The translations under genes and the position numbers were made by a program. A DNA stretch of 64,000 nucleotides from Sphingomonas taxi. Lineage in GTDB: Bacteria; Pseudomonadota; Alphaproteobacteria; Sphingomonadales; Sphingomonadaceae. Where the stretch lies: contig NZ_CP009571.1 of assembly GCF_000764535.1 (NCBI RefSeq), positions 2,785,001 to 2,849,000 of the forward strand, read 5' to 3'. Positions 36,574-51,900 of the stretch are shown piece by piece. The stretch's first letter is position 1. Each line of letters opens with the position of its first letter. The notes beneath the pieces were generated by a model, which ran no database searches, was not told the origin of the DNA, and worked only from the letters and a program-made list of their open reading frames with translations.

Positions 36574-36930
36574 CAGTTGACTAGGATTTAACCCGCCTAC
36601 CTATTCTGCACACGATCTATGCCATTACTTTTTATGGGCTGATCTAAACATTAGATTATATTAGCGGTAACAGGGATAAAAAAGCCTTTAGCTGCCATTA
36701 CTTACCCGCGTGCCGTCGCGGTTAAAGGCCGAATTGCCGTGTGCGGGAGCGTGCGAATGTGTCCGACGGGCGCGCCAGCAGGGGCCGTGTTCCTCCGCCC
36801 ATGACTGCCGACACCCTGACCCCACAAAAACGTCAGCCTTCCCCACCAATTGCCCGCCCCCTCTTGCACCGCACGCCCGACCCTGCGACGGAAGCTCCAA
36901 AGCCGACCAAAGCGGCACGAAGGAGCGAGG
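36574..36930. other. AT-rich divergent intergenic region
   Basis: The part 36574-36710 is strikingly AT-rich for this window (runs such as AAACATTAGATTATATTA and ATAAAAAAGCC). It should hold the promoters of the receptor (left) and of mmsA (right). No convincing Fur box was found. Confidence 0.5.
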
Positions 36931-38460
36931 ATGCGTACCATCGATCATCTCATCGTCGGATCGGCCGGCGGTGATGCCACGCGCTACGGCGACGTGTTCG
37001 ATCCCAACAGCGGCGAGATCCAGGCGCGCGTGCCGCTCGGCACCGCGGCCGATCTCGACCGCGCCGTCGCCGCGGCGCAGGCCGCGCAGCCCGGCTGGGC
37101 CGCCACCAATCCACAGCGCCGCGCCCGCGTCATGTTCCGCTTCAAGGAACTGGTCGAGGCGAACATGGACGCGCTCGCGCATCTGCTCTCCTCCGAACAC
37201 GGCAAGGTGATCGCCGATTCGAAGGGCGACATCCAGCGCGGGCTGGAGGTGATCGAATTCTGCTGCGGCATCCCGCACATCCTGAAGGGCGAATATACGC
37301 AGGGCGCCGGCCCCGGCATCGACGTCTATTCGATGCGCCAGCCGCTTGGGATCGGCGCGGGGATCACCCCGTTCAACTTCCCGGCGATGATCCCGATGTG
37401 GATGTTCGGCGTCGCCATCGCCACCGGCAACGCCTTCCTGCTCAAGCCCTCCGAGCGCGATCCGTCGGTGCCGGTGCGGCTCGCCGAGCTGATGCGGGAG
37501 GCGGGCGCGCCCGAGGGCATTTTGCAGGTCGTCCATGGCGACAAGGCGATGGTCGACGCGATCCTCGATCATCCCGCGATCAGCGCGGTCAGCTTCGTCG
37601 GGTCGAGCGACATCGCGCATTACGTCTACCGCCGCGGCGTCGAGGCGGGCAAGCGCGTGCAGGCGATGGGCGGCGCCAAGAACCACGGCATCGTCATGCC
37701 CGACGCCGATCTCGACCAGGTCGTCGCCGATCTGTCGGGCGCGGCCTTCGGCTCGGCGGGCGAGCGCTGCATGGCGCTGCCCGTGGTGGTGCCGGTCGGC
37801 GACAAGACCGCCGATGCGCTGCGCGAGAAACTGATCCCGGCGATCGCGGCGCTGCGCGTCGGCGTGTCGACCGATGCGCAGGCGCATTACGGCCCGGTGG
37901 TCAACGCCGCGCACAAGCAGCGCGTCGAAAACTGGATCCAGACCGGCGTCGACGAGGGCGCCGAGCTGGTCGTCGACGGCCGCGGCTTCACGCTGCAGGG
38001 GCATGAGAAGGGCTTCTTCGTCGGCCCGACCTTGTTCGACCGCGTCACGCCCGACATGTCGGCATACAAGGAGGAGATCTTCGGCCCCGTCCTCCAGATC
38101 GTCCGCGCGCCCGATTTCGAGACCGCGGTGCGGCTGCCGAGCGAGCATCAGTACGGCAACGGCGTCGCGATCTTCACCCGCAACGGCCATGCCGCGCGCG
38201 AGTTCGCGGCGCGGGTCAATGTCGGGATGGTCGGGATCAACGTGCCGATCCCGGTGCCGGTCGCCTATCACAGCTTCGGCGGCTGGAAGCGCAGCGCGTT
38301 CGGCGACACCAACCAGCACGGCATGGAAGGCGTCAAATTCTGGACCAAGGTCAAGACGGTGACGCAGCGCTGGCCCGACGGCTCGGCGCTCCCCGGCGGC
38401 AGCGAGGACGGCGGCCCGAGCCGCATCCAGGATGCCTTCGTCATCCCGACGATGGGCTGA
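36931..38460 (+). CDS. mmsA: Methylmalonate-semialdehyde dehydrogenase (CoA-acylating)
   Basis: 509 residues of the aldehyde dehydrogenase superfamily. PLGIGAGITPFNFPAMIPMWMF and GSAGERCMALPVVVPVG (catalytic Cys) are MMSDH hallmarks, as is the lack of the general-base Glu of hydrolytic ALDHs. It forms propionyl-CoA from methylmalonate semialdehyde in valine breakdown. AGGAGCGAGG precedes ATG 36931. It heads the operon with lipoprotein, acyl-CoA dehydrogenase and mmsB. Confidence 0.95.
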   Translation: MRTIDHLIVGSAGGDATRYGDVFDPNSGEIQARVPLGTAADLDRAVAAAQAAQPGWAATNPQRRARVMFRFKELVEANMDALAHLLSSEHGKVIADSKGDIQRGLEVIEFCCGIPHILKGEYTQGAGPGIDVYSMRQPLGIGAGITPFNFPAMIPMWMFGVAIATGNAFLLKPSERDPSVPVRLAELMREAGAPEGILQVVHGDKAMVDAILDHPAISAVSFVGSSDIAHYVYRRGVEAGKRVQAMGGAKNHGIVMPDADLDQVVADLSGAAFGSAGERCMALPVVVPVGDKTADALREKLIPAIAALRVGVSTDAQAHYGPVVNAAHKQRVENWIQTGVDEGAELVVDGRGFTLQGHEKGFFVGPTLFDRVTPDMSAYKEEIFGPVLQIVRAPDFETAVRLPSEHQYGNGVAIFTRNGHAAREFAARVNVGMVGINVPIPVPVAYHSFGGWKRSAFGDTNQHGMEGVKFWTKVKTVTQRWPDGSALPGGSEDGGPSRIQDAFVIPTMG

Positions 38461-38465
38461 CCGGC

Positions 38466-38960
38466 ATGCGCAGCACGATCCTCCTCGCCGCCGCGCTCGG
38501 CCTCGCCGCCTGTTCGGGCGGCGAATCGGCCAACAACGAATCGTCGGGCGGCAGCGCCGCGGTCGAGCCGACGCCAAACGACCTCACCGTCGATCCGCAG
38601 AACAGCGTCGTACCGATCCCCGCGGTCAGCCCCTCGCCGATCGCCGCGATCCCCGGCGGCTTCCAGGGCCATTGGGGCATGGTGTCGGGCGATTGCGACC
38701 CGGCGAGCGGCGCCGACAAGGGCACGCTGACCATCGCCGGCAACCGCCTGTCCTTCTTCGAATCGCGCGGCACCGCCGCCACGATCCGCCAGACCCGCCC
38801 GGACCAGATCGCCTTCGACCTGCCGATGAGCGGCGAGGGCATGACCTGGTCCGAACCGACCACGCTCACCCTGCTCGACGACGGCAAGACGCTGGTGCGC
38901 GAGGCCAAAGGCGACGCCAATCGCGCCGGCTCGTTCCGCTACAGCCGCTGCCCGGCCTGA
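38466..38960 (+). CDS. Predicted lipoprotein of unknown function
   Basis: 164 residues. The lipobox is LAAC (Cys16), followed by a Gly/Ser/Asn-rich tether and a compact domain with GFQGHWGMVSGDCDPASGADKGTLTIAG and a final RYSRCPA. The GxWG....DC pattern recalls small extracytoplasmic domains of sphingomonads with two cysteines. It lies five bases after mmsA and eight before the dehydrogenase, so it is a real operon member with no obvious catabolic role. Confidence 0.8.
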   Translation: MRSTILLAAALGLAACSGGESANNESSGGSAAVEPTPNDLTVDPQNSVVPIPAVSPSPIAAIPGGFQGHWGMVSGDCDPASGADKGTLTIAGNRLSFFESRGTAATIRQTRPDQIAFDLPMSGEGMTWSEPTTLTLLDDGKTLVREAKGDANRAGSFRYSRCPA

Positions 38961-38967
38961 GGATATC

Positions 38968-40131
38968 ATGGAAAACCAGTTCGACCTGACCCCCCAATTT
39001 GATCTCACGGGCGACCAGCGCGAGATCCAGGAGCTCGCGCGCCGCTTCACCGCCGACCGGATCACGCCCCATGCGGCGGAATGGGACGAGAAGCACATCT
39101 TCCCGCGCGACACGATCAAGGCGGCGGCCGAACTCGGCTTCGCCGCGATCTACGTGTCGGAGGAGAGCGGCGGCATTGCGCTCGGCCGGCTCGAGGCGGC
39201 GCTCATCATGGAGGCGATGGCCTATGGCTGCCCGTCGACCAGCGCGTTCATCTCGATCCACAATATGGCGAGCTGGATGATCGACCGCTTCGGGTCGCAG
39301 ACGGTGAAGGACAAATATCTCCCCAGCCTCGTCACCATGGACCGGCTCGGCAGCTATTGCCTCACCGAACCCGGCTCGGGCAGCGACGCCGCCGCGCTGA
39401 AGACCAAGGCGGTCCGCGACGGCGATCATTATGTCGTCACCGGCTCGAAACAGTTCATCTCCGGCGCCGGCGAGAACGAGGTCTACGTGACGATGGTCCG
39501 CACCGGCGAGGAGGGGCCCAAGGGCATCTCGGCGCTGGTGATCGAGAAGGACATGGCCGGCGTGTCGTTCGGCGCCAACGAGCGCAAGCTCGGCTGGCAT
39601 TCGCAGCCGACGCGGCAGGTGACGTTCGACAACGTCCGCGTGCCGGTGGAAAATCGCGTCGGCGCCGAGGGCGAGGGCTTCCGCATCGCGATGATGGGGC
39701 TCGACGGCGGCCGGCTCAACATCGGCGCGTGCAGCCTCGGCGGCGCGCAGCGCTGCCTCGACGAGGCGATCCGCTATACCAAGGACCGCAAGCAGTTCGG
39801 TACGGCGATCGCCGACTTCCAGAACACCCAATTCACCCTCGCCGACATGGCGACCGAACTGGAGGCGGCGCGTGCGCTGCTCTACATGGCGGCGGCGAAG
39901 GTGACCGCCAATGCCCCCGACAAGACGCGCTTCGCGGCGATGGCCAAGCGGCTCGCCACCGATACCGGCAGCAGCGTCGTCGACCGCGCGCTGCAATTGC
40001 ACGGCGGCTACGGCTATCTGATGGATTACCCGATCGAGCGTTTCTGGCGCGACCTGCGCGTCCATTCGATCCTCGAGGGCACCAACCAGGTGATGCGGAT
40101 GATCGTCGGCCGCGACCTGATCCGGCAGTAG
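38968..40131 (+). CDS. Acyl-CoA dehydrogenase (isobutyryl-CoA dehydrogenase by context)
   Basis: 387 residues. Signatures are CLTEPGSGSDAAALKT and GGYGYLMDYPIERFWRDLRVHSILEGTNQVMRMI with the catalytic Glu in LEGTNQ. It oxidises a short branched acyl-CoA with FAD and ETF. Placement between mmsA and mmsB suggests isobutyryl-CoA as substrate. The hydratase and hydrolase steps of valine breakdown are not in the window. Confidence 0.92.
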   Translation: MENQFDLTPQFDLTGDQREIQELARRFTADRITPHAAEWDEKHIFPRDTIKAAAELGFAAIYVSEESGGIALGRLEAALIMEAMAYGCPSTSAFISIHNMASWMIDRFGSQTVKDKYLPSLVTMDRLGSYCLTEPGSGSDAAALKTKAVRDGDHYVVTGSKQFISGAGENEVYVTMVRTGEEGPKGISALVIEKDMAGVSFGANERKLGWHSQPTRQVTFDNVRVPVENRVGAEGEGFRIAMMGLDGGRLNIGACSLGGAQRCLDEAIRYTKDRKQFGTAIADFQNTQFTLADMATELEAARALLYMAAAKVTANAPDKTRFAAMAKRLATDTGSSVVDRALQLHGGYGYLMDYPIERFWRDLRVHSILEGTNQVMRMIVGRDLIRQ

Positions 40132-40142
40132 GAGAGAGAGAC

Positions 40143-41015
40143 ATGGCACGCGTCGCCTTCATCGGCCTCGGCAACATGGGCGGCGGCATGGCCGCCAACC
40201 TCGCGAAGCACGGCCATGACGTCCGCGCCTTCGACCTCAGCGCCGCGGCGCTCGACAAGGCGCAGGCGGCCGGCTGCCTGCCCGTCGCCGGCGCCGCCGA
40301 GGCGGTCGCGGGTGCCGAGGCGATCGTCACCATGCTGCCCGCCGGCGCGCATGTCGAAAGCGTCTATGCCGATGCGGTATTCGGCCACGCCGAGCCGTCC
40401 GCGATCCTGATCGACTGTTCGACGATCGACGTCGCCACCGCGCGCCGCGTCGCCGAGGCCGCGGCGGCCAAGGGCCTCGCCGCGGTCGACGCGCCGGTGT
40501 CGGGCGGGATCGGCGCCGCCAATGCCGGCACGCTCACCTTCATGGTCGGCGGTCCCGAGGATGCGTTCGAGCGCGCGCGCCCGTTCCTCGCCGACATGGG
40601 CAAGGCGGTGATCCACGCCGGCGCGAGCGGCGCCGGGCAAGCCGCCAAGATGGCCAACAACATGCTGCTCGGCGCGACGATGATCGCGACCTGCGAGGCG
40701 TTCCGGCTCGCCGAACGGCTGGGGCTCGATGCGCAGACCTTCTACGACATCTCGTCGGTCAGCTCGGGCCAGAGCTGGTCGATGACGAGCTATTGCCCCC
40801 TGCCCGGCGTCGGCCCGGAGACGCCCGCCGACCACGACTATCAGGGCGGATTCGCCGCCGCGCTGATGCTCAAGGACCTGCGGCTGGCGATGCAGGCGGC
40901 CGAAGGCGCGGGCGCGACGACCCCGCTCGGCGCGCATGCGACCGCCTTGTACGAGGCGTTCGTCGCCGCCGGGAACGGCGGAACGGATTTCTCGGGGATC
41001 ATCCGGACGCTGTGA
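40143..41015 (+). CDS. mmsB: 3-hydroxyisobutyrate dehydrogenase
   Basis: 290 residues. The NAD site is FIGLGNMGGGMAANL; DAPVSGGIGAANAGTLTFMVGG and GQAAKMANNMLLG (catalytic Lys) are family motifs, and the C-terminus has DHDYQGGFAAALMLKDL. It oxidises 3-hydroxyisobutyrate to methylmalonate semialdehyde, the substrate of MmsA. AGGAGAGAGAC lies just upstream. It is the last gene of the operon. Confidence 0.95.
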   Translation: MARVAFIGLGNMGGGMAANLAKHGHDVRAFDLSAAALDKAQAAGCLPVAGAAEAVAGAEAIVTMLPAGAHVESVYADAVFGHAEPSAILIDCSTIDVATARRVAEAAAAKGLAAVDAPVSGGIGAANAGTLTFMVGGPEDAFERARPFLADMGKAVIHAGASGAGQAAKMANNMLLGATMIATCEAFRLAERLGLDAQTFYDISSVSSGQSWSMTSYCPLPGVGPETPADHDYQGGFAAALMLKDLRLAMQAAEGAGATTPLGAHATALYEAFVAAGNGGTDFSGIIRTL

Positions 41016-41305: not shown

Positions 41306-42367
41306 TCAACCCTCGCCTCGCCCACGCCGCCCGCGCCGTACCGCGCCCACCGCGGCGGACCACAGCAAGGTCTCGCCGCCCGCATAGCCCAGCCCGAGGT
41401 GCGCCGGCCGCGCCGCCAGCACGTCGCGCAGCCGCACCGCGCCCGAGCGCAGCCCCGCCCGCCCGATCCGCGCCCAGCGCCGCGCCGTCTCCCAGCGGAT
41501 CAGCTTGCGGCTCTCCGCATCGGGCCGCTCCTGCGCGAGGAACGCCGCCTGCAACGTCGCGATTCCCGCGCCCAGCCGCTGCAGCGTCGCGCGGTCGGGC
41601 ACCGGCACGCCGCCCATATTGTGCAGCACCAGCAGCCGCGCCATCGCCGCCGCCTCATCGACGCCGAGCACCCCCGCATGCCGCTCGGCCAGCACCCGCA
41701 TCGCCGAATCGCGCATCGTGTCGGTGAACCGTTTCGAGGCGCCGCCGGCATGCTGGCGATAGCGCAGCAGCGGCACGTCGATCCGCGCGATCCGTCCGAA
41801 TGCGCCGACGCGGTGATACAGGTCGAAATCCTCGGCATAGAGGATCTCGGGCCGGGTGAACGGATCGAGCGTCCGCGCCACCTCGGCACGCACCATCACC
41901 GTCGACCAGACCAGCGGATTCTCGATCCAGCTCAGCCACGCGATCAGCTCGGGCGTGGTATGCGGCGCATAGTGCATCGCCGAGACCTTGCCGTCGCGCA
42001 ATTGCTCCGCCTGCGTGCCGACCAGCACCACGTCGGGATGCGCGTCGAGATAGGCGACCTGCCGCGCCAGCCGCTCGGGCAAACAGAGGTCGTCCTGGTC
42101 GAGCCCGGCGATGAACCGCCCGCGCGCCGCGGCGACGCCGCGGTTGCGGGTGCGCACCGGCCCGCCGTTGACCTCGTTCTCGATCAGCCGCACGCGCGGA
42201 TCGGGCCAGCCGCGTACCAATTCGCGGGTGCCGTCGCTCGAGCAATCGTCGACGACGATCGCCTCCCACGCCGCCAGCGTCTGCGCGGCGAGCGACTCCA
42301 GCGTCGCGCCGATGAACGCCTCGCCGTTATAGCCGGGGATGACGACCGAGACGACCGGCGTGGTCAT
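41306..42367 (-). CDS. Family 2 glycosyltransferase
   Basis: 353 residues. The GT-A core starts VSVVIPGYNGEAFIGATLESL, with IVVDDCSSDGT, NGGPVRTRNRGVAAARG and the DXD-like GLDQDDLC; AEDFDLYHRVG is the usual acceptor-site segment. The C-terminal 120 residues are Arg/Ala-rich. It would transfer a sugar from a nucleotide donor to a surface glycan or a small metabolite. Its ATG overlaps the stop of the aminotransferase-flavoprotein gene, so they form one unit. Confidence 0.9.
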   Translation of the reverse strand: MTTPVVSVVIPGYNGEAFIGATLESLAAQTLAAWEAIVVDDCSSDGTRELVRGWPDPRVRLIENEVNGGPVRTRNRGVAAARGRFIAGLDQDDLCLPERLARQVAYLDAHPDVVLVGTQAEQLRDGKVSAMHYAPHTTPELIAWLSWIENPLVWSTVMVRAEVARTLDPFTRPEILYAEDFDLYHRVGAFGRIARIDVPLLRYRQHAGGASKRFTDTMRDSAMRVLAERHAGVLGVDEAAAMARLLVLHNMGGVPVPDRATLQRLGAGIATLQAAFLAQERPDAESRKLIRWETARRWARIGRAGLRSGAVRLRDVLAARPAHLGLGYAGGETLLWSAAVGAVRRGRRGRGEG

Positions 42368-44847
42368 GCCGCCTCTTGCGCCTCCCGATCGAGCAGCTGG
42401 TCGACGATCATCTGGCCGACGTCGTTCTGCCAAAGCCACAGGCCGTTGGCCTGGCCGCGGAAGCTCGCCTCGCCGCCCAGCCGGCCCCATGGCACGAAGC
42501 CCGCCGACAGGCCGATGCCATAGGCGCCCGGCACCGGCCGGTCCTGCGCGTCGAGGATGCGGCAATGGCGATCGACCATCGGCCGGCCGGCATGATGCGC
42601 CAGCGCCAGCGGCGCGCCGTCGACGCCGAGCAGCGGCACCGCGCGCGGCCGGTAGCCGAGCGCGCCGATCACCAGATCCGCCTCCGCGATGACCGCCCGC
42701 GCCGCCGCATCCTCGTCGCCGGCGATACGGTGCGAGGCGACGCGCGGATCGGGCGTGCGCCCGCCGAGCGACAGCATGCGCAGCACCAGTTCGCGCGATT
42801 CGAGCCGCAGCCCGGCGAGCCGCAGCACGAAGCCGCTGACCGGGCAGATGTCGTTGTCGTCGAAATCGTGGAAGCCGTCGGCATGCGCCGCGGCGACGTT
42901 GGGATAGAAGGGCTTGAGCGGCTGGCGATGCAGCAGCGTCACCGCCCCCGCCCCGAAGGCGAAGCCCGGCTGGCTCTTGAGCAGCAGCACCGCCGCGGCA
43001 ATCGCGCTGGTCGAGGCGCCGATGATCGCGACCCGCGGCGACGGGATGTCGCGCAGCCGCTCGTGCACCTGCTCGACCCCGCCGAGCCGCAGCACCGTAT
43101 CGGAGCGGATCAGCCGTTCGCCCGCCAGCGCGCCGAGCGCGACGCCGGCGACGCGCTTGGCGGCGACCTGTTCGTCGGTCTGCACCCCGCCGGTCGCGAC
43201 CACGACGTTGCGCGACACCAGCGCGCGCGTGACGCCCGCACCGTCGCTGACCGTCGTCTGCCAGCGACCATCGGCAGTGCGCTGCACGCGCTGCGCCGCA
43301 TGGCCGGTCAGCACCGCGCCGCCGTGCCGCACGACGATGTCGCGCAGCCGGTCCGCGGTCGCCGACAGCAGCGGCGCGGTATCGACCAATGGCGCGCCGA
43401 GTTCGGCGACGTAGCGGCCCATCAATTGCCCGGCGGGGTGATGCTCCAGCTCGGCGAGTTCGGGATGCGGATTGTTCTTCACCGCCGATAGGAAGGTCTC
43501 GGCGGTGGTGTCCGAGCGGATCGCATAGGAGCCGAGCTCGCCGGCACCCATCCGCGCCCTCTGCTCGACGATCGCGAACCCCGCCTCGACCAGCGGCGCC
43601 AATTTGCCCAGTTTGCTCGCCGAGGTCAGCATCGCGGTGCCGGCGGGGCCGCCGCCGATCACCACCGTCGTCAAATCCTGCATCGCCGTCCCCATCTGCC
43701 GCGTCGCGCCGGCCGCGGTCACCCGCGCGACCGCGCCCGCCAGCCGCGCGGCGATCACCGGCGCGTCGGCGGGGGTCATCGCATCGGTGATCGGCAGGCT
43801 CAGCATACGCCCGCCGATCGCGTCGGCGACCGGCGTCGGCTCGATCAGCGCGGTGTCGCGGAACAGCGGCTGTTCGCCGAGATGCGGGCTGAAATACTGG
43901 CCGACGCCGACGCCGTCCGCGGCGAGCGCCGCGACGATCGCGTCGCGCTCTCCCGCCAGCTCAGGCGGCAGCAGCACCGGCATGAACTGCGTCGCCTGCC
44001 GCCGCCCCGACGGCCGCTGCATCGCGAAGCCGGGCAGCGCGGCGCGATAGGCGGCGTCGATCGCGGCGCGATGGTCGCACACCGCATCGATCTCGGCCAG
44101 CTTGGCGCGCGCCATCAGCGCGATCACCTCGGGCAATTTGGCGTTGATGCCGGGCAGCGTCGCGCTGCGCCCCCGTTCGAAACCGAAATTGATCATGCCG
44201 CGCAACTGGTCGATCCGGGCGACGTCGCCGCTGTGGATCAGCCCTCCCTCCGCGACCGAGAAGGTCTTGGTGGCATGCATCGAATAGACGAGCGTGAACG
44301 GCGCGCCGCTGCCGAACCCGCGCCCGTCGCCGTCGCGCGTGCCGAGCGACGCCGCCGCATCGATCACCACGCCGACGCCGTGACGGTCGGCGAGCCAGGC
44401 ATAGCGGTCGAGGTCGATCGCGGTGCCGAACGTCGCATAGGGTACGATGACGCCGATCCGCGCGCCGTACCGCGCGAGCAGCGCCTCTTCCTGCCGCGGA
44501 TCGGCGGTCCAGCCGTCGGCCTCGATGTCGCAGATCAGCGGCGTCAGTCCCGCCCAGAGCGCCGCCTGCGCGGTCGCCGCGAAGGTCAGCGCCGGCATCA
44601 ACGCCAGCGTCCCCGGTCGCAGCTGCATCCCCGCGGCCTGCCGCAACGCGACGATCAGCCCCAGCGTGGCATTGCCGACCGCGAGGCAGGCGCCGGTGCC
44701 GCCGAACAGCCGCTCGGTCGCCTCCGCCTCGAACGCGCGCACCTCGGGCCCGTTGTTGCTGAACACGCCCGACGCCTCGATGCGGCGCAGGCCCTCGGTA
44801 AGCTCGCTCAGCCGCGGCGGCCGCGGCGCGATCAACGGAAATTCCAT
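42364..44847 (-). CDS. Fusion of DegT/DnrJ-type aminotransferase with FAD/NADP-binding oxidoreductase
   Basis: 827 residues in one uninterrupted frame. Residues 1-375 are a DegT/DnrJ/EryC1 aminotransferase: D163 (VVIDAAAS) binds the PLP ring nitrogen, and K194 in YSMHATKTFSVAEGG is the Schiff-base lysine. From 391 a flavoprotein follows: FAD motif VVIGGGPAGTA (395-405), a second Rossmann motif VAIIGASTSAIAAA (606-619) and GALGYRP (728-734), close to the ATGY motif of N-hydroxylating monooxygenases. The aminotransferase half would aminate a keto-sugar; the second half may oxidise or N-hydroxylate the product (inference). AGGACGG precedes ATG 44847. An internal ATG at the domain junction could start a separate flavoprotein. 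Confidence 0.82.
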   Translation of the reverse strand: MEFPLIAPRPPRLSELTEGLRRIEASGVFSNNGPEVRAFEAEATERLFGGTGACLAVGNATLGLIVALRQAAGMQLRPGTLALMPALTFAATAQAALWAGLTPLICDIEADGWTADPRQEEALLARYGARIGVIVPYATFGTAIDLDRYAWLADRHGVGVVIDAAASLGTRDGDGRGFGSGAPFTLVYSMHATKTFSVAEGGLIHSGDVARIDQLRGMINFGFERGRSATLPGINAKLPEVIALMARAKLAEIDAVCDHRAAIDAAYRAALPGFAMQRPSGRRQATQFMPVLLPPELAGERDAIVAALAADGVGVGQYFSPHLGEQPLFRDTALIEPTPVADAIGGRMLSLPITDAMTPADAPVIAARLAGAVARVTAAGATRQMGTAMQDLTTVVIGGGPAGTAMLTSASKLGKLAPLVEAGFAIVEQRARMGAGELGSYAIRSDTTAETFLSAVKNNPHPELAELEHHPAGQLMGRYVAELGAPLVDTAPLLSATADRLRDIVVRHGGAVLTGHAAQRVQRTADGRWQTTVSDGAGVTRALVSRNVVVATGGVQTDEQVAAKRVAGVALGALAGERLIRSDTVLRLGGVEQVHERLRDIPSPRVAIIGASTSAIAAAVLLLKSQPGFAFGAGAVTLLHRQPLKPFYPNVAAAHADGFHDFDDNDICPVSGFVLRLAGLRLESRELVLRMLSLGGRTPDPRVASHRIAGDEDAAARAVIAEADLVIGALGYRPRAVPLLGVDGAPLALAHHAGRPMVDRHCRILDAQDRPVPGAYGIGLSAGFVPWGRLGGEASFRGQANGLWLWQNDVGQMIVDQLLDREAQEAA

Positions 44848-45004
44848 GAGATGCCGTCCTGACAATCGAACCGCGGAGGTACCCCACCCCCCCTAAGAAC
44901 CGGTTAGCGCGCGTCATTCTCTACGCAGGACGCAGTCGCGACCGACGATGGAATATCGTTCGGAGAAACACTTCGCAACATTCGATTGACTGCCGAAGCA
45001 ACCA

Positions 45005-45020: not shown

Positions 45021-45494
45021 ATGGACTATTATTCCGAGTCGAACTTCACTCCGGAAAACTCGATCGGCTATCTCCTGCGCCGTTCGGAGCAGCTCGGCGC
45101 GGCCGTGCTCGAACCGATCTTCGTCGCCGCCGGCATCACCAAGACGCAGTGGAGCGCGCTCGCCGCCCTCCACTTCAACCGCGCGTCGACCTGCGCCGAG
45201 ATCGCGCGCGACCTCTGTCACGACAAGGGTGCCACCACCCGGCTGGTCGACACGCTGGAGGAGCGCGGCTGGGTGATGCGCGACCGCGACGGCGGCGAGG
45301 ATCGCCGCGTCGTCCGGCTTACCCTGACGCCTGCCGGCGAACACATCGCCGGCACCGTCCGCGATGCCGTCATCCGCGTCTGGAACCACTGGCTAAGTGA
45401 TTGGGAGGAAAGGGATATTACGGACCTGATCCGCCTCCTCCAGCGGCTCCGCGACACCGTCCAACAGACCCCCGACGAAGGCGTCTTTGCGTGA
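45021..45494 (+). CDS. MarR-family transcriptional regulator
   Basis: 157 residues. A winged-helix core has WSALAALHFNRASTCAEIARDLCHDKGATTRLVDTLEERGWVMR and the wing DRDGGEDRRVVRLTLT, as in MarR/SlyA. It is the first gene of the efflux operon and its stop overlaps the OMF GTG (GTGA). It likely represses the operon until a toxic ligand binds. Confidence 0.9.
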   Translation: MDYYSESNFTPENSIGYLLRRSEQLGAAVLEPIFVAAGITKTQWSALAALHFNRASTCAEIARDLCHDKGATTRLVDTLEERGWVMRDRDGGEDRRVVRLTLTPAGEHIAGTVRDAVIRVWNHWLSDWEERDITDLIRLLQRLRDTVQQTPDEGVFA

Positions 45495-46897
45495 AGATAG
45501 CGAATTTATCCCCCGCCGCGCTGCTGCTGCTCGGCGCCTGCGCCATCCCGGCCAGCCCCCCCGCGGTCGCGCCCGTCGCGCCCCCGACGCTCGGCCTCAC
45601 CGGCGCCGCGACCCCGGCGATCGCCGACGATTGGTGGACCGGCTTCGGCGATCCGCAGCTCGACCGGCTCGTCGCCGATGCGACCGCGGGCAATCCGACG
45701 CTCGACGCCGCGCTCGCCCGCATCGCCCAGGCGCAGGCGGTGCTCTCCAGCCGCCGCGCCGACACCGGCCCCGACGTGACGCTGGATGCCAACGAGCAGC
45801 TCCAGCGCCTGTCCGGCCGCTACATCATCCCGCCGCCCTACGGCGGCTCGGTCCGCTTCGTCGGGCAGGTGCAGGCCAATCTCACCTGGAACCTCGACCT
45901 GTTCGGGCGGCAGAAGGCGGCGATCACCGGCGCCCGCGCCTCGGCCCGCGCCGCCGCGCTCGACCTCGCCGCCGCGCGCCTCGCGATCGCCGGCTCGGTC
46001 GCGCAGACCTATATCGACCTCGCCCGCGCCGAGGCGGAGGCGACGATCGCCCGCCGCACGATCGCGACGCGGCAGGACTCGCTGCGCCTCGTCAACATCC
46101 GCATCCGCAACCGCCTCGCCAGCAATCTGCAGGCGACCGCAGCGCAGACGCTGCTGGCGCAGGCGCAGACCGCTTTGGTCCGCGCCGACGGCGCCCGCGC
46201 GCTCGCGACCAATGCGCTCGCCGCGCTCGCCGGGCGTGGCCCCGATTATGCCGCGGCGATCCGCCCGGCGACGCTGCGCCTCGACGCGGCGCTGCCGCTG
46301 CCCGCGCAGGTCCCCGCCGACCTGCTCGCCCGCCGCCCGGACATCGCCGCGGCGCAGGCGCGGATCGAGGCCGCCGCCGCCGGCCGCCAGGTCGCCCGCC
46401 GCGCCTTCTATCCCAACGTCAACCTCACCGCGCTCGCCGGCTTCCAGGCGATCGGGCTCGGCAATCTGGTCAGCCTCGATGCCGGCACCGCCGGCGCCGG
46501 GCCTGCCATCCACCTGCCCTTGTTCGACAATGGCCGGTTGAAGGCCGACCTCGCCGGCGCAACCGCGGTGCTCGATCTCGCCACCGCCGACTATAACGAC
46601 CGCGTCATCGGCGCGGTGCGCGACGCGGCGGACGCGATCGCGCTCGTTGCCAATCTCGGCGAGCAGCGCGCCCGCACCGCAGAGGTCGTCCGCGGCTTCG
46701 GCGAGACCAACCGCCTTAACGCGATCCGCGTCTCGAGCGGGCTCGATAGCAAGCTCGACCTCGTCGACAACGACGTCCGCCTGCTCGATGCCGAACTGAC
46801 GCAAGCCAATCTCGTCGCCGATGCGGCCCGCCAGCGCGTCGCGCTGGTGCTGGCGCTCGGCGGCGGCTTCTCCTCCTCCCAGGAACCCCGCCGATGA
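45491..46897 (+). CDS. NodT-family outer-membrane efflux lipoprotein
   Basis: 468 residues, GTG start. The lipobox is LLLLGAC (Cys17). DDWWTGFGDPQLDRLVADATAGNPTLDAALARI and the later LLARRPDIAAAQARIEAA are the two OEP repeats of the TolC-like family. It forms the trimeric outer-membrane duct for the EmrAB-type pump encoded next. It overlaps the following ATG (ATGA). The second NodT-type gene in the window is at 62311. Confidence 0.92.
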   Translation: MKIANLSPAALLLLGACAIPASPPAVAPVAPPTLGLTGAATPAIADDWWTGFGDPQLDRLVADATAGNPTLDAALARIAQAQAVLSSRRADTGPDVTLDANEQLQRLSGRYIIPPPYGGSVRFVGQVQANLTWNLDLFGRQKAAITGARASARAAALDLAAARLAIAGSVAQTYIDLARAEAEATIARRTIATRQDSLRLVNIRIRNRLASNLQATAAQTLLAQAQTALVRADGARALATNALAALAGRGPDYAAAIRPATLRLDAALPLPAQVPADLLARRPDIAAAQARIEAAAAGRQVARRAFYPNVNLTALAGFQAIGLGNLVSLDAGTAGAGPAIHLPLFDNGRLKADLAGATAVLDLATADYNDRVIGAVRDAADAIALVANLGEQRARTAEVVRGFGETNRLNAIRVSSGLDSKLDLVDNDVRLLDAELTQANLVADAARQRVALVLALGGGFSSSQEPRR

Positions 46898-48060
46898 CCG
46901 ACACGCAAGCCCCAACGCCCCAACCCGCGAGCGCCGGCGGCAAGCCACGCACGCGTCGCCGCGGCTTCCTGATCCTCGCCGTGATCGTCGTGATCGCGCT
47001 GATCGTCTGGGCGGTCTTCCACTTCCTGCTCGCCAAGCCCGAACAGGAGACCGACGACGCCTATGTCGCCGGCGACGTCGTCGCGATCACCGCGCGCGAT
47101 CCCGGCCAGATCACCGCGATCCATGCCGACAATACGCAGACGGTGAAGGCCGGCGCGCCGCTGCTCGACCTCGATCCCGCCACCGCCGACGTCGCGCTCG
47201 CGTCTGCCGAGGCGGAACTCGCCCGCGCCGTCCGCTCGACTCGCGCCGACATCAGCAAGGTCAGCGAGAGCGGCGCCGCCGTCGTTCAGGCGCAGGCCCA
47301 GCTCTCCGCCGCCACCGCCGATTACGCCCGCCGACAGGGCGCCGCGGCGCAGGGCGCGATCTCGGGCGAGGAACTCGCGCATGCCGCCGACGCGGTGAAG
47401 GTCGCGCGCGCCAACCTCAATCTCGCGCGCAGCCAGCAGGCGCAGTCGCGCTCGACGGTACAGGGCACCGACACCACCACCAACCCGGCGGTGCTCGCCG
47501 CCGCCGCCGCCTATCGCCGCGCCGCGATCACGCGCAGCCACATGCATATCGTCGCGCCGATCGACGGCGTCGTCGCGCAGCGCACCGTGCAGATCGGCCA
47601 GCAGGTCGCCGCCGGCACGCCGCTGATGGCGGTGGTGCCGCTCGCCAAGGTGTGGGTCGACGCCAATTTCCGCGAGACGCAGCTCAAGGACCTCCGCATC
47701 GGCCAGCCGGCGACGGTGACCGCCGACATGTACGGCGACGACGTGGTCTTCCACGGTCATGTCATCGGCGTCGGCGCCGGGTCGGGCAACGCCTTCGCGC
47801 TGCTGCCGCCGCAGAACGCCAGCGGCAACTGGATCAAGATCGTCCAGCGCGTGCCGGTGCGCATCGGCCTCGACCCGCGCGAGCTGACCCGCAATCCGCT
47901 GCGCGTCGGCCTGTCGGTCAACACGACGGTGGACACCGCCAACCGCTCGGGCGCGCTGCTCGGCAAGCCCGCGGCGCAGGCCTATGCCGGCGGCGGCGGC
48001 GATGGCCGCGACCCCGCGGTCGAGGCGCGCATCCGCCAGATCATCGCCGCCAATCGTTGA
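46894..48060 (+). CDS. EmrA-like HlyD-family periplasmic adaptor
   Basis: 388 residues. A membrane anchor lies at about 26-47 (FLILAVIVVIALIVWAVFHFLL), then ETDDAYVAGDVVAITARDPGQITAIH, a helical hairpin of about 120 residues and a lipoyl half with VDANFRETQLKDLRIGQPATVTADMYG. This is the EmrA pattern. It links the DHA2 pump to the outer-membrane duct. Confidence 0.92.
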   Translation: MTDTQAPTPQPASAGGKPRTRRRGFLILAVIVVIALIVWAVFHFLLAKPEQETDDAYVAGDVVAITARDPGQITAIHADNTQTVKAGAPLLDLDPATADVALASAEAELARAVRSTRADISKVSESGAAVVQAQAQLSAATADYARRQGAAAQGAISGEELAHAADAVKVARANLNLARSQQAQSRSTVQGTDTTTNPAVLAAAAAYRRAAITRSHMHIVAPIDGVVAQRTVQIGQQVAAGTPLMAVVPLAKVWVDANFRETQLKDLRIGQPATVTADMYGDDVVFHGHVIGVGAGSGNAFALLPPQNASGNWIKIVQRVPVRIGLDPRELTRNPLRVGLSVNTTVDTANRSGALLGKPAAQAYAGGGGDGRDPAVEARIRQIIAANR

Positions 48061-48072
48061 CGCCCGCGTCGT

Positions 48073-48106
48073 CCTCACCCCTCGCCGCCTGCGGCGGAGG
48101 GTGAGG
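48073..48106. repeat. Intercistronic hairpin in the efflux operon
   Basis: CCTCACCC pairs with GGGTGAGG and an inner CGCCGC/GCGGCG stem follows. It lies in the 74-bp gap between adaptor and pump genes, with no T-tract, and may stabilise the upstream mRNA. Confidence 0.55.
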
Positions 48107-48134
48107 GCGAACCGATATCCCGGAAGATACGCTG

Positions 48135-49682
48135 ATGGCCGCCCCCACCCAAGCCCAAGGCCCCGCCCCGCTCGTCGGCGGCCAGCGCGCGCTGATCGCC
48201 TTCGCGCTCGCGCTCGGCACGTTCATGATGGTGCTCGACAGCACGATCGCCAACGTGTCGCTGCCGACGATCGCGGGCAATCTCGGCGTCTCGTCCGACA
48301 ATTCGACCTGGGTGATCACCGCCTTCGCGGTCGCCAACGGCGTCGCGGTGCCGCTGACCGGCTGGCTGATGGGCCGGTTCGGCGTCGTGCGCACCTTCTG
48401 CACCGCGGTGGCGGCGTTCACCGTCGCCTCCTTCCTGTGCGGGATCGCCTGGGACCTGCCCTCGCTGATCGTCTTCCGCATCCTGCAAGGCGCCTGTTCG
48501 GGGCCGATGATGCCGGGCAGCCAGGCGCTGCTCATCTCGATCTTCCCGCCCGACAAGCGCTCCACCGCGCTCGGCGTGTGGTCGATGACGACGCTGGTCG
48601 GGCCGGTGATGGGGCCGATCCTCGGCGGCTATATCAGCGACAATTACCATTGGAGCTGGATCTTCCTGATCAACATCCCCTTCGGCATCTTCACGACGCT
48701 GATCTGCTGGAACGGATTGAAGAGCCGCGAGACGCCGACGCGCAAGCTGCCGATCGACACCGTCGGGCTGCTGCTGCTCGTCGTCTGGGTCGGCTCGCTG
48801 CAGATCATGCTCGATCTCGGCAAGAACGCCGACTGGTTCAACGACCCGGCGATCTGCGTGCTCGCCGTCGTGGCGGCGGTCGGCTTCGTCGCGTGGATCA
48901 TCTGGGAATTGACCGACGCCAATCCGGCGGTCGACCTGTCGCTGTTCGCCAACCGCAATTTCGCGATCGGCACGCTCGCCTTCTGCCTCGGCTATGCGGT
49001 GTTCTTCGCCAACACGCTGATCCTGCCGCTCTGGCTGCAGACGCAGCTCGGCTATACCGCGACCTGGGCGGGGCTGATCGCGGCGCCGAGCGGGGTGGTG
49101 GCGGTGCTCATCTCGCCGCTTGCCGCGCGCCTGTCGGGCAAGGTCGATGCGCGCATCCTCGCGACGATCTCCTTCCTCGCCTTCGCCGTCTCCTATTGGA
49201 TGCGCTCCAACCTCGTCACCGGCGCGACGGTGTTCGACTTCATGGCGCCGCTGCTGGTGCAGGGGATCGCGATGAGCATCTTCTTCCTCGCGATGGTGAC
49301 GATCCTGCTCGACGGCATCGCGCCGCCGCGCATCCCCTCGGCGACCGGCATCTCGAACTTCGCGCGGATCGTCGCCGGCTCGTTCGCCGCGTCGATCATC
49401 ACCACCGCCTGGGACCGGCGCGAGGCGATCCACCAGAGCCGCCTCGCCGAGGCGATCGGGCAGGGCATGCCCTACCAGATGGCGAGCGAGGGCATCCAGA
49501 AGCTCGGCGCCACCTCGACGCAGGCGGCGGCGGCGATCACGCGGCAGATGGTGGGGCAGGCGTATCTGCTCGCCTCGACCGACCTGTTCCGCGTCTCGGC
49601 GTGGCTGTGCGCGGCGATGGTGGTGATCGTCTGGTTCACGCGGCGTCCCAAGGGCGGCCACGGGCCGGTCGCGGCGGACTGA
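48135..49682 (+). CDS. EmrB-like DHA2-family MFS drug efflux pump
   Basis: 515 residues with about 14 hydrophobic helices. Family motifs are MVLDSTIANVSLPTIAGNLGVS (first helix, acidic D), GWLMGRFGVVRTF (motif A), RILQGACSGPMMPGSQALLI and GPVMGPILGGYISDNYHWSWIFLINIPFG (motif C). It should export hydrophobic drugs or metabolites with protons through the neighbouring adaptor and duct. Confidence 0.93.
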   Translation: MAAPTQAQGPAPLVGGQRALIAFALALGTFMMVLDSTIANVSLPTIAGNLGVSSDNSTWVITAFAVANGVAVPLTGWLMGRFGVVRTFCTAVAAFTVASFLCGIAWDLPSLIVFRILQGACSGPMMPGSQALLISIFPPDKRSTALGVWSMTTLVGPVMGPILGGYISDNYHWSWIFLINIPFGIFTTLICWNGLKSRETPTRKLPIDTVGLLLLVVWVGSLQIMLDLGKNADWFNDPAICVLAVVAAVGFVAWIIWELTDANPAVDLSLFANRNFAIGTLAFCLGYAVFFANTLILPLWLQTQLGYTATWAGLIAAPSGVVAVLISPLAARLSGKVDARILATISFLAFAVSYWMRSNLVTGATVFDFMAPLLVQGIAMSIFFLAMVTILLDGIAPPRIPSATGISNFARIVAGSFAASIITTAWDRREAIHQSRLAEAIGQGMPYQMASEGIQKLGATSTQAAAAITRQMVGQAYLLASTDLFRVSAWLCAAMVVIVWFTRRPKGGHGPVAAD

Positions 49683-49733
49683 TCGGCCGGGCCGCGGTTG
49701 ACCGCCCCGGCCGCCTTGCCTACCTCTCGGGCC

Positions 49734-50444
49734 ATGACCGCCCCCACCATCCTCCTGGTCGAGGACGATCCCGCCCTCCGCACCCTGACCACCAGAGCCT
49801 TGCAGGAAAACGGTTATCTCGTCCGTCCCGCCTCCGCCGCGCCCGAAATGTGGCTCGCGCTGGAAGCCGGGCCGGTCGATCTGATCCTGCTCGACATCAT
49901 GCTCCCCGGCACCAGCGGCATCGACCTGTGCCGCGCGCTGCGCCAGAAGAGCGAGGTCCCGATCATCTTCATCAGCGCCAAGGGCAGCGAGACCGACCGC
50001 GTCGTTGGGCTCGAGCTCGGCGCCGACGATTATATCGCCAAGCCGTTCGGCAGCCGCGAGCTGATCGCGCGTATCCGCGCGGTGCTGCGCCGCGGCCAGC
50101 TCGAACGCCGCCCCGGCGAGCGCGAGGAGGGCGTGCTGACCTTCGACGGCTGGCAGGTGACGCTGCCGCGGCGCGAGCTGACCTCGCCGACCGGCGCGGT
50201 GGTCGACCTGACCGGCGCGGAATTCGACCTGCTCGTCAGCCTCGCCGAACATGCCGGCCGCGTTATCGCGCGCGAGCGGCTGATCGAGCTGTCGCGCACC
50301 CGGCTCGGCGACAGTTCGGACCGCAGCATCGACGTGCTGATCAGCCGGCTGCGCCGCAAATTGTCGAGCGCCGGCAAGGACGCGCCGATCATCACCGTGC
50401 GCGGCGTCGGCTATATGCTCAACACCGAGGTGACGCGCCGGTGA
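49734..50444 (+). CDS. OmpR-family response regulator
   Basis: 236 residues. The receiver has E10-D11-D12, phospho-acceptor D54 (LLDIMLPG) and K103 (IAKPFG). The C-terminal winged helix has LTGAEFDLLVSLAEHAGRVIARERL and a RSIDVLISRLRRKL recognition helix. It begins 51 bases after the pump gene and may share its transcript. ATG 49734 gives the family N-terminus. Confidence 0.93.
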   Translation: MTAPTILLVEDDPALRTLTTRALQENGYLVRPASAAPEMWLALEAGPVDLILLDIMLPGTSGIDLCRALRQKSEVPIIFISAKGSETDRVVGLELGADDYIAKPFGSRELIARIRAVLRRGQLERRPGEREEGVLTFDGWQVTLPRRELTSPTGAVVDLTGAEFDLLVSLAEHAGRVIARERLIELSRTRLGDSSDRSIDVLISRLRRKLSSAGKDAPIITVRGVGYMLNTEVTRR

Positions 50445-50471
50445 CGGCTGGCGCCGCCATCTCCCATCTCT

Positions 50472-50566
50472 CCCCGTTCGCCCTGAGCCTGTCGAAGGGC
50501 TGGTCGCCCCAAACCCGGTCATCGCCTGCGGATCCCCGTGCTTTGACAGGCTCAGCACGAACGGGG
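50472..50566. repeat. Inverted pair of REP type C dyads between regulator and kinase genes
   Basis: Units at 50472-50503 and 50538-50566 face each other in the 145-bp gap. The second is degenerate (CTTTGACAGG). They would form hairpins in the two-component transcript. Confidence 0.75.
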
Positions 50567-50589
50567 AAGAGGGACAGGGCGCCTCGCCC

Positions 50590-51900
50590 ATGAGGCGCTT
50601 CGTCCGCCCCTCGATCGGCCTGATCGGCCAGATCGTCGCGATCCTGCTGCTGACGATGGTGATCGAATTCGGCGTCAGCACGATCCTCTACGAGCGTGCC
50701 AGCCAGTTCGCGGTGCGCGACGACGAGGCACGCCGCCTGGCGGAACATCTCGTCATCGCGCGCCGCCTCGTCGCCGAGCAGCCGCCCGAGCGGCGCGACG
50801 CGATGGCGGAGGATCTCACCACCGAACGCTACGCGCTTCATTGGCAGCGCAACCTGCCGCCGCCGCCGCCGATCGCGCCGGCGCTCGACGGCATGCGCCA
50901 TCAGGTGATCGAATGGGAACCGTCGCTTGCCGCCAGCGACCTGCGGCTGAAGCTCACTTCGCCGGGGCGCAGCTCGGTGGTCACCGGCGGGCTGCGGCTG
51001 CCCGACAATAGCTGGCTCTATTTCCGCACGCTCGAACCGCTGCACAATCTCGAACTCGCCACCGAACGCATCCTGCTCGCGCTGATCCCGGCGCTGGCGC
51101 TGATGGTGATCGGCGGGCTGCTGATCCGCCGCGCGCTCAGGCCGATGCGCCAGCTCGCGATCGCCGCCGACACGCTCGGCGACGCCGAACACGATCCGAT
51201 CCCCGAGGCGGGGCCGGGCGAAGTGCGCCGCGTCGTCGCCGCGTTCAACCGGATGGCGGCGCGCATCCAGCGGCTGATCGTCGACCGCACGCAGGCGCTC
51301 GCCGCGGTCGGCCACGATCTGCGCACGCCGCTGCACCGGCTGAAACTGCGCGCGGACGCGGTCGAGGACGAGACGACCCGCGCGGCGATCCAGCGCGATA
51401 TCGGCGAGATGGAGGCGATGGTGAATTCGCTGCTCGCCTTCCTCGGCGGCGGCAGCGATCCCGAGGCCCCGGTGCTGACCGACGTCGCGGTGCTCTGCGC
51501 GACGCTGATCGACGATGTCGAGGACCGCGGCCTGCCCGGCGTCTACGACGGTCCGTCGCATTGCGAGGTCACCGTCCGTCCGGTCGCGCTGAAACGCGCG
51601 CTGGGCAATCTGATCGAGAATGCGCTTCATTATGCCGGCAACGTCGTGCTGCGTCTGGAAAGCGAACCCGCCGGCGTGACGATGATCGTCGAGGACGACG
51701 GCGCCGGCATTCCGGAAGACCAGCTGCGCCGCGTGCTCGAACCCTTTGTCCGGCTCGATACGTCGCGACCGCGCGACACGGTCGGTTTCGGCCTCGGCCT
51801 GCCGATCGTCGGCCGCATCGTCGAGGCGGAGGGCGGCGTGCTGACGCTCGCGAACCGCCCCGAAGGCGGCCTGCACGCCGCGATCTTCCTGCCGCGGTGA
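50590..51900 (+). CDS. Sensor histidine kinase
   Basis: 436 residues. Two membrane helices (about 11-33 and 159-179) enclose a roughly 125-residue periplasmic domain with a PPPPP run. HAMP follows, then H242 in AVGHDLRTPLHRL. The ATPase has NLIENALHYA, DDGAGIP and GFGLGLPIV. It is the partner of the response regulator upstream; the signal is unknown. The order EmrB-regulator-kinase suggests control of envelope or drug stress. Confidence 0.93.
   Translation: MRRFVRPSIGLIGQIVAILLLTMVIEFGVSTILYERASQFAVRDDEARRLAEHLVIARRLVAEQPPERRDAMAEDLTTERYALHWQRNLPPPPPIAPALDGMRHQVIEWEPSLAASDLRLKLTSPGRSSVVTGGLRLPDNSWLYFRTLEPLHNLELATERILLALIPALALMVIGGLLIRRALRPMRQLAIAADTLGDAEHDPIPEAGPGEVRRVVAAFNRMAARIQRLIVDRTQALAAVGHDLRTPLHRLKLRADAVEDETTRAAIQRDIGEMEAMVNSLLAFLGGGSDPEAPVLTDVAVLCATLIDDVEDRGLPGVYDGPSHCEVTVRPVALKRALGNLIENALHYAGNVVLRLESEPAGVTMIVEDDGAGIPEDQLRRVLEPFVRLDTSRPRDTVGFGLGLPIVGRIVEAEGGVLTLANRPEGGLHAAIFLPR

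Follow-up and report, generated by a model that had tools for sequence, protein, structure and literature searches.

A fused aminotransferase-flavoprotein gene coupled to a glycosyltransferase

The 64,000-nucleotide stretch of Sphingomonas taxi DNA analysed here (the window; contig NZ_CP009571.1, positions 2,785,001 to 2,849,000) contains a gene in which a DegT-type aminotransferase is joined in frame to a flavoprotein. Read from the likelier ATG, this gene forms one open frame of 827 codons at 42364..44847 on the reverse strand, stop codon included in the coordinates; an upstream TTG start would give 833 codons (42364..44865, reverse strand). Domain matches place a DegT/DnrJ/EryC1/StrS aminotransferase domain at residues 17-367 (43747..44799; all features of the fusion lie on the reverse strand), where PF01041 scores 201.2 bits (E 3.6e-59) against a curated cut-off of 19.8, and Pyr_redox_2 (PF07992, E 4.2e-8) matches residues 394-643. 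The flavoprotein half covers residues 386-827 (42367..43692), and the linker before it lies at about residues 378-389 (43681..43716), with low model confidence at 384-387. The single frame and the two domain matches confirm that the fusion is genuine and encodes one bifunctional protein, as the initial annotation of this DNA had proposed. A structure model of the whole fusion reached a pTM of 0.54, and the relative placement of the two halves in it is not interpretable.

In the aminotransferase half we found both D163 (44359..44361) and K194 (44266..44268), which in enzymes of this family are the aspartate that pairs with the pyridine nitrogen and the lysine that binds pyridoxal phosphate (PLP), respectively. 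The nearest structures to this half are 3ju7, PseC, DesI, and ArnB, which agrees with its earlier description as a sugar aminotransferase, and we predict that it acts as a sugar aminotransferase. From these DegT enzymes (3ju7 from Bacillus cereus, titled putative; DesI, 2po3; ArnB; PseC) the window family differs in being fused to or paired with a flavoprotein, and on the DesI model the window aminotransferase scores 154 against a cut-off of 650.

Directly downstream lies a family 2 glycosyltransferase (GT2) of 353 amino acids (41306..42367, reverse strand; PF00535, E 1.9e-32), whose ATG shares 4 nt with the stop codon of the fusion (ATGA). This arrangement is conserved. We compared the best 80 of 174 confirmed genome loci, most of them labelled Sphingomonas and a few labelled Novosphingobium or otherwise. 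All 80 contain a gene of the fusion cluster, in some cases truncated by a contig end, and 78 have a GT2 relative downstream, whose start (projected from the alignment) falls between 7 nt before the fusion ends and 77 nt past that point; the overlap was exactly 4 nt in 29 loci. No GT2 relative was found at E 1e-10 in the remaining two (L076 and L089). Since the next commonest neighbour was present in just 26 of the 80 loci, the conserved unit consists of two genes, and the coupling to a GT2 that had been noted from the window sequence holds well beyond it.

Homologues with the same fusion proved common in the genus: near full-length copies without stops were present in 119 of 201 genomes, the source genome counted, at identities down to 54%, which greatly exceeds what chance would produce. 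We therefore reject the explanation that an assembly or sequencing artefact merged two genes, for which no supporting evidence was found and which we regard as having next to no chance of being correct. Among other genomes of the genus, the fusion is split into two adjoining pieces in different frames in three (G068, G162, and G171), by natural decay or assembly error, and reaches a contig edge in three more (G007, G082, and G178); G120 has the flavoprotein alone and G018 a C-terminal remnant of the fusion. A protein search returned 699 fusion relatives among 7996 candidates scored. The best 120 of these 699 all matched PF01041, and 119 of the 120 were 822-858 amino acids long (P0061 has 755).

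Recurrent pairing outside the genus

Genome searches with a flavoprotein profile found the family in 8 of 385 genomes of the class, 12 of 398 of the phylum, and 13 of 246 of the order, the source genome being included each time. All 13 order genomes belong to the genus of the window. We based the count outside the genus on 11 genomes, leaving out the genus itself and two partial matches near E 1e-21 (G361 and G459); judging by its translation, the frame that holds the G459 match starts out as an ATP-grasp protein would. In 9 of these 11 genomes the flavoprotein adjoins a DegT gene or is fused to one in reverse order. The fused case is G244, with a flavoprotein-DegT protein of 870 amino acids; the two genes are adjacent in the other eight (G265, G402, G445, G533, G631, G635, G708, and G898), and G705 and G870 had no DegT gene within the stretch fetched around the flavoprotein.

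A second reversed fusion, of 900 amino acids, lies in a polysaccharide locus on a plasmid of Granulicella tundricola (Acidobacteriota), where it is followed by a glycosyltransferase and then a sugar transferase. The two reversed fusions share 45% identity over 874 aligned columns. Several of the non-genus loci are likewise set among polysaccharide genes, with flippases, Wzc-like proteins, and glycosyltransferases recognised from the translated neighbours. Distance matrices of 14 DegT partners and 14 flavoprotein partners correlate at r 0.95, a value reached by none of 2000 permutations and to which shared ancestry contributes.

Two DegT partners (L112 6908-8389 and L113 6627-8117) carry about 130-150 extra N-terminal residues. 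This stretch resembles a CBS domain and may allow nucleotide sensing.

A flavoprotein family with its own signature

The flavoprotein half contains two Rossmann motifs, GGGPAG at residue 398 (43639..43656), which would bind FAD judging by its sequence, and GASTSA at residue 610 (43003..43020), a pattern kept in the family that would bind NADPH; relatives have GGSTSA or GGSHSA in place of GASTSA. These, like GALGYRP at residue 728 (42646..42666), are the motifs given in the initial annotation, and all are present. We counted motifs in 39 family sequences and glycine invariance in 35, the window protein included in both. G13 and G15 of the flavoprotein half, in the GGGPAG motif, were invariant in 35 of 35, and each of the two dinucleotide motifs was retained in 38 of 39. 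R256, past the next strand after the second Rossmann motif, was present in 39 of 39, as were D281 and C283 in DIC (42844..42852), the core of the signature D[IV]C..S..V.R..G.R. This signature is the most conserved of the family and sits in a low-confidence stretch of both structure models. As for the ATGY-like motif proposed earlier, its counterpart is indeed present and its GY is kept in 39 of 39 sequences, but it reads ALGY in the window protein, and the T of ATGY occurs in 4 of 39.

Other flavoprotein classes were compared by their own hallmarks. The fingerprint FxGxxxHxxx[YFW] of flavin-containing monooxygenases (FMOs) was found in none of the 39 sequences. The redox-active cysteine pair by which disulfide reductases (TrxR, Lpd) are recognised is missing from the window half, which has neither CxxC nor CxxxxC; across the family these occur in 3 and 0 of 39, respectively. 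Source labels name family proteins only as 'DegT aminotransferase' or 'FAD-dependent oxidoreductase', and the flavoprotein also exists as standalone copies.

The predicted fold resembles YpdA, FMOs, and N-hydroxylating monooxygenases in both Foldseek and VIA searches. PvdA heads the Foldseek list, in which SidA is abundant and EtcB and DfoA are also present. VIA aligns 337-363 residues to the entries for SidA, PvdA, KtzI, EtcB, DfoA, DesB, and putrescine N-hydroxylase; among the 50 matches listed, these aligned lengths exceed those of the other families, with mostly larger root-mean-square deviations. For comparison at the sequence level we assembled N-hydroxylases by their Pfam family, PF13434. 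A search of 142 class genomes gave no match at E 1e-30, and the set was therefore drawn from the phylum. Motifs guided the choice of the hhalign control sets, which retained 28 of 30 N-hydroxylase, 7 of 13 FMO, and 21 of 25 thioredoxin reductase loci. The flavoprotein half gave a full-length hhalign match to the 28-sequence N-hydroxylase alignment. Strict GxGPxN, GxGQSA, and ATGY motifs, of which the window protein has the variants GGGPAG, GASTSA, and ALGY, occur in 26, 24, and 27 of these 28 sequences, a set chosen partly by the last two motifs. PF13434 matched at E <= 0.01 in 7 of 24 close family members and, in an overlapping wider set, in 4 of 11, and its cut-off of 21.3 bits was exceeded by P0209 (23.5), P0239 (22.2), L235 (23.6), and L236 (26.2). 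A wider protein search gave 1103 matches, with close members only among the best 120 of the 1103. With SidA, PvdA, KtzI, and EtcB, all of PF13434, the window protein shares the predicted two-Rossmann fold, the N-terminal FAD motif, a GxxxSA second motif, and the GY motif; unlike them, its family has an invariant DxC signature of its own, no FVNE motif, and an aminotransferase partner. We conclude that the second half belongs to a separate family of class B-like flavoproteins, and that classing it as a SidA/PvdA N-hydroxylase would be wrong.

Distant relatives suggest a functional analogy. A looser plasmid search gave eight records, six of which were examined, and in Rahnella and Priestia distant family members were found next to a nucleotidyltransferase-PLP fusion or separated from it by a single gene. 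In Rahnella sikkimica (L233 9998-20905) and Erwinia rhapontici (L234 9998-20990) the flavoprotein adjoins a PLP protein of 620 amino acids; the Rahnella copy of this protein is a nucleotidyltransferase-aminotransferase fusion. The gene sets of these two loci are alike and also hold a HAD-IIIC/FkbH-like protein, an ATP-grasp protein, and a major facilitator superfamily (MFS) transporter. On the Priestia megaterium plasmid pBM700 (L235 9974-15658) the flavoprotein occurs with an AAC(3)-like acetyltransferase, a 607-amino-acid nucleotidyltransferase-PLP fusion, and a DXR homologue; a CDP-alcohol transferase-like frame lies there as well. By analogy, the pBM700 set is a possible FR-900098-like cluster. 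A distant flavoprotein of Shinella, which NCBI names a SidA/IucD/PvdA family monooxygenase, lies beside a Cys/Met-type PLP enzyme in a cluster of nonribosomal peptide and polyketide synthases.

FR-900098 is an inhibitor of DXR, and FrbH has a PLP part in addition to its nucleotidyltransferase. FrbH is described as a MobA-like cytidylyltransferase (PMC6697681), and a review describes FrbG as structurally similar to group B FMOs, hydroxylating an aminopropylphosphonate unit within a CMP conjugate, with CMP crucial for specificity (PMC7347517). The make-up of FrbH resembles the nucleotidyltransferase-PLP fusion found near the distant relatives of the window flavoprotein, whereas the FR-900098 substrate is a phosphonate and the one proposed for the window protein a sugar. 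We regard this likeness as the strongest functional hint, though one by analogy only.

Candidate reactions, substrates, and implications

We favour, as an unproven reading with a probability of roughly 0.4, a route in which a nucleotide-linked sugar is aminated, then N-oxidised by a flavin-dependent step, and then transferred by the GT2. The DegT half would use PLP and a glutamate or glutamine donor to aminate the ketone of a nucleotide-linked sugar or a comparable substrate, the flavoprotein half would oxidise this amine to the hydroxylamine or beyond with FAD, NADPH, and O2 in the manner of class B monooxygenases, and the translationally coupled GT2 would attach the product to an acceptor in the envelope or the exopolysaccharide.

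Several observations weigh against this route. VIA Z scores are higher for YpdA (23.2) and FMOs (23.0) than for N-hydroxylases (20.9), and in hhalign the N-hydroxylases outscore the FMOs only with a deeper alignment; at an equal depth of seven sequences they score 80-96 against 99. FVNE occurs in 19 of 28 N-hydroxylases and in 1 of 39 family sequences. The window protein has no match to PF13434 at E 0.1 and falls short of its curated cut-off; the likeness to amine N-hydroxylases originally proposed extends to the two-dinucleotide-binding class and to a Foldseek list headed by PvdA but not to the Pfam family. A figure legend of the review on FrbG (PMC7347517) gives its substrate as the N-acetylated phosphonate, contradicting the text. 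No entry named FrbG appeared among the PDB sequence matches listed (the best 60 per search). We know of no product for any family member.

The chief rivals assign the flavoprotein another role. It might use NADPH for a different redox reaction of the sugar or of the sugar carrier, such as C-hydroxylation or reduction, its link to DegT reflecting a shared pathway only; we consider this a serious contender but unlikely, as the pairing with an aminotransferase is too regular for so loose a link and redox cysteine pairs are all but absent from the family.

The other chief rival, which we judge rather improbable, has the flavoprotein act first, oxidising a common nucleotide sugar at one hydroxyl to the ketone that DegT then aminates, making the fusion a self-contained hydroxyl-to-amine enzyme. 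It bears on the source of the substrate, which we surveyed in 40 genomes with the cassette and 40 without. RmlB exceeded its cut-off in 34 of the former and 26 of the latter (Fisher P 0.07), and with no clear link to RmlB, and six cassette genomes lacking it, we rejected a dedicated deoxythymidine diphosphate (dTDP)-sugar route. None of these six had a PF02719 match at E 1e-20. G034 and G160, both rated 100% complete, had GalE only among PF16363 matches at E 1e-20; G081 had two GMDs over the cut-off and two further short-chain dehydrogenase/reductase (SDR) matches (L227 and L229); and G106, G142, and G153 had only other SDRs, whose scores among the matches listed stayed under the dehydratase cut-offs. 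Therefore, as long as the assemblies have lost no genes, a 4-keto-6-deoxy sugar from the dehydratase families searched is not required in at least G034 and G160. The candidates that remain are a 3-keto sugar, a cyclitol, and a ketone produced by the flavoprotein itself. The keto-sugar substrate proposed at the outset is weakened by the lack of a detectable 4,6-dehydratase of these families in two cassette genomes, which speaks for ketone formation by the flavoprotein; other dehydrogenases (Gfo/Idh, outside this search) could also provide the ketone. The oxidoreductase and DegT pair GnnA/GnnB works in this way. Against the flavoprotein acting first, flavoproteins with two dinucleotide sites, one of NADPH type, normally take hydride from NADPH, and the family has no invariant histidine able to serve as the alcohol base.

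That the flavoprotein half is catalytically silent or structural, for example a nucleotide-sensing scaffold, is very improbable given the retention of both dinucleotide motifs and the standalone copies, even though the most conserved signature falls where both models have low confidence.

Returning to amination followed by N-oxidation, a broader generalisation is possible, if tentative: a widespread, unrecognised family may build nucleotide-carried sugars with an N-oxidised group (hydroxylamino, nitroso, or nitro), through a class B-type flavin oxygenase fused in either order to the aminotransferase that supplies its amine, with a partner glycosyltransferase delivering them to surface glycans. 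Such sugars would form a chemical class new to the bacterial envelope, and their N-oxidation would employ a fold new to this reaction of aminosugars. KijD3 and DnmZ are flavin nitrososynthases of amino sugars with an acyl-CoA dehydrogenase fold; the reaction class, amine oxidation of nucleoside diphosphate-linked aminosugars, would be common to both, and their fold differs from the two-Rossmann fold of the window protein. Nitrososynthases were not among the structure matches listed, an uninformative absence. In the open-licence papers searched we found none on a DegT-flavoprotein fusion and none on N-oxidised exopolysaccharide sugars. If the amine is oxidised, many Sphingomonas and scattered other bacteria would carry reactive N-O sugars, maybe overlooked in their glycans; if a ketone is made instead, a single protein that replaces a sugar hydroxyl with an amine would be an unusual catalyst, and a useful one. 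In either case a family named only generically would gain a function.

The genes on both sides of the two-gene unit look ordinary. Upstream and divergent, 45021-50593 encodes a MarR-type regulator by Pfam and translations resembling an ordinary efflux set (outer-membrane factor, HlyD-type adaptor, EmrB-type MFS transporter, and response regulator). At 36850-41015, the translated frames (methylmalonate-semialdehyde dehydrogenase, acyl-CoA dehydrogenase, and a hydroxyisobutyrate dehydrogenase-like protein) resemble an ordinary valine catabolism set.

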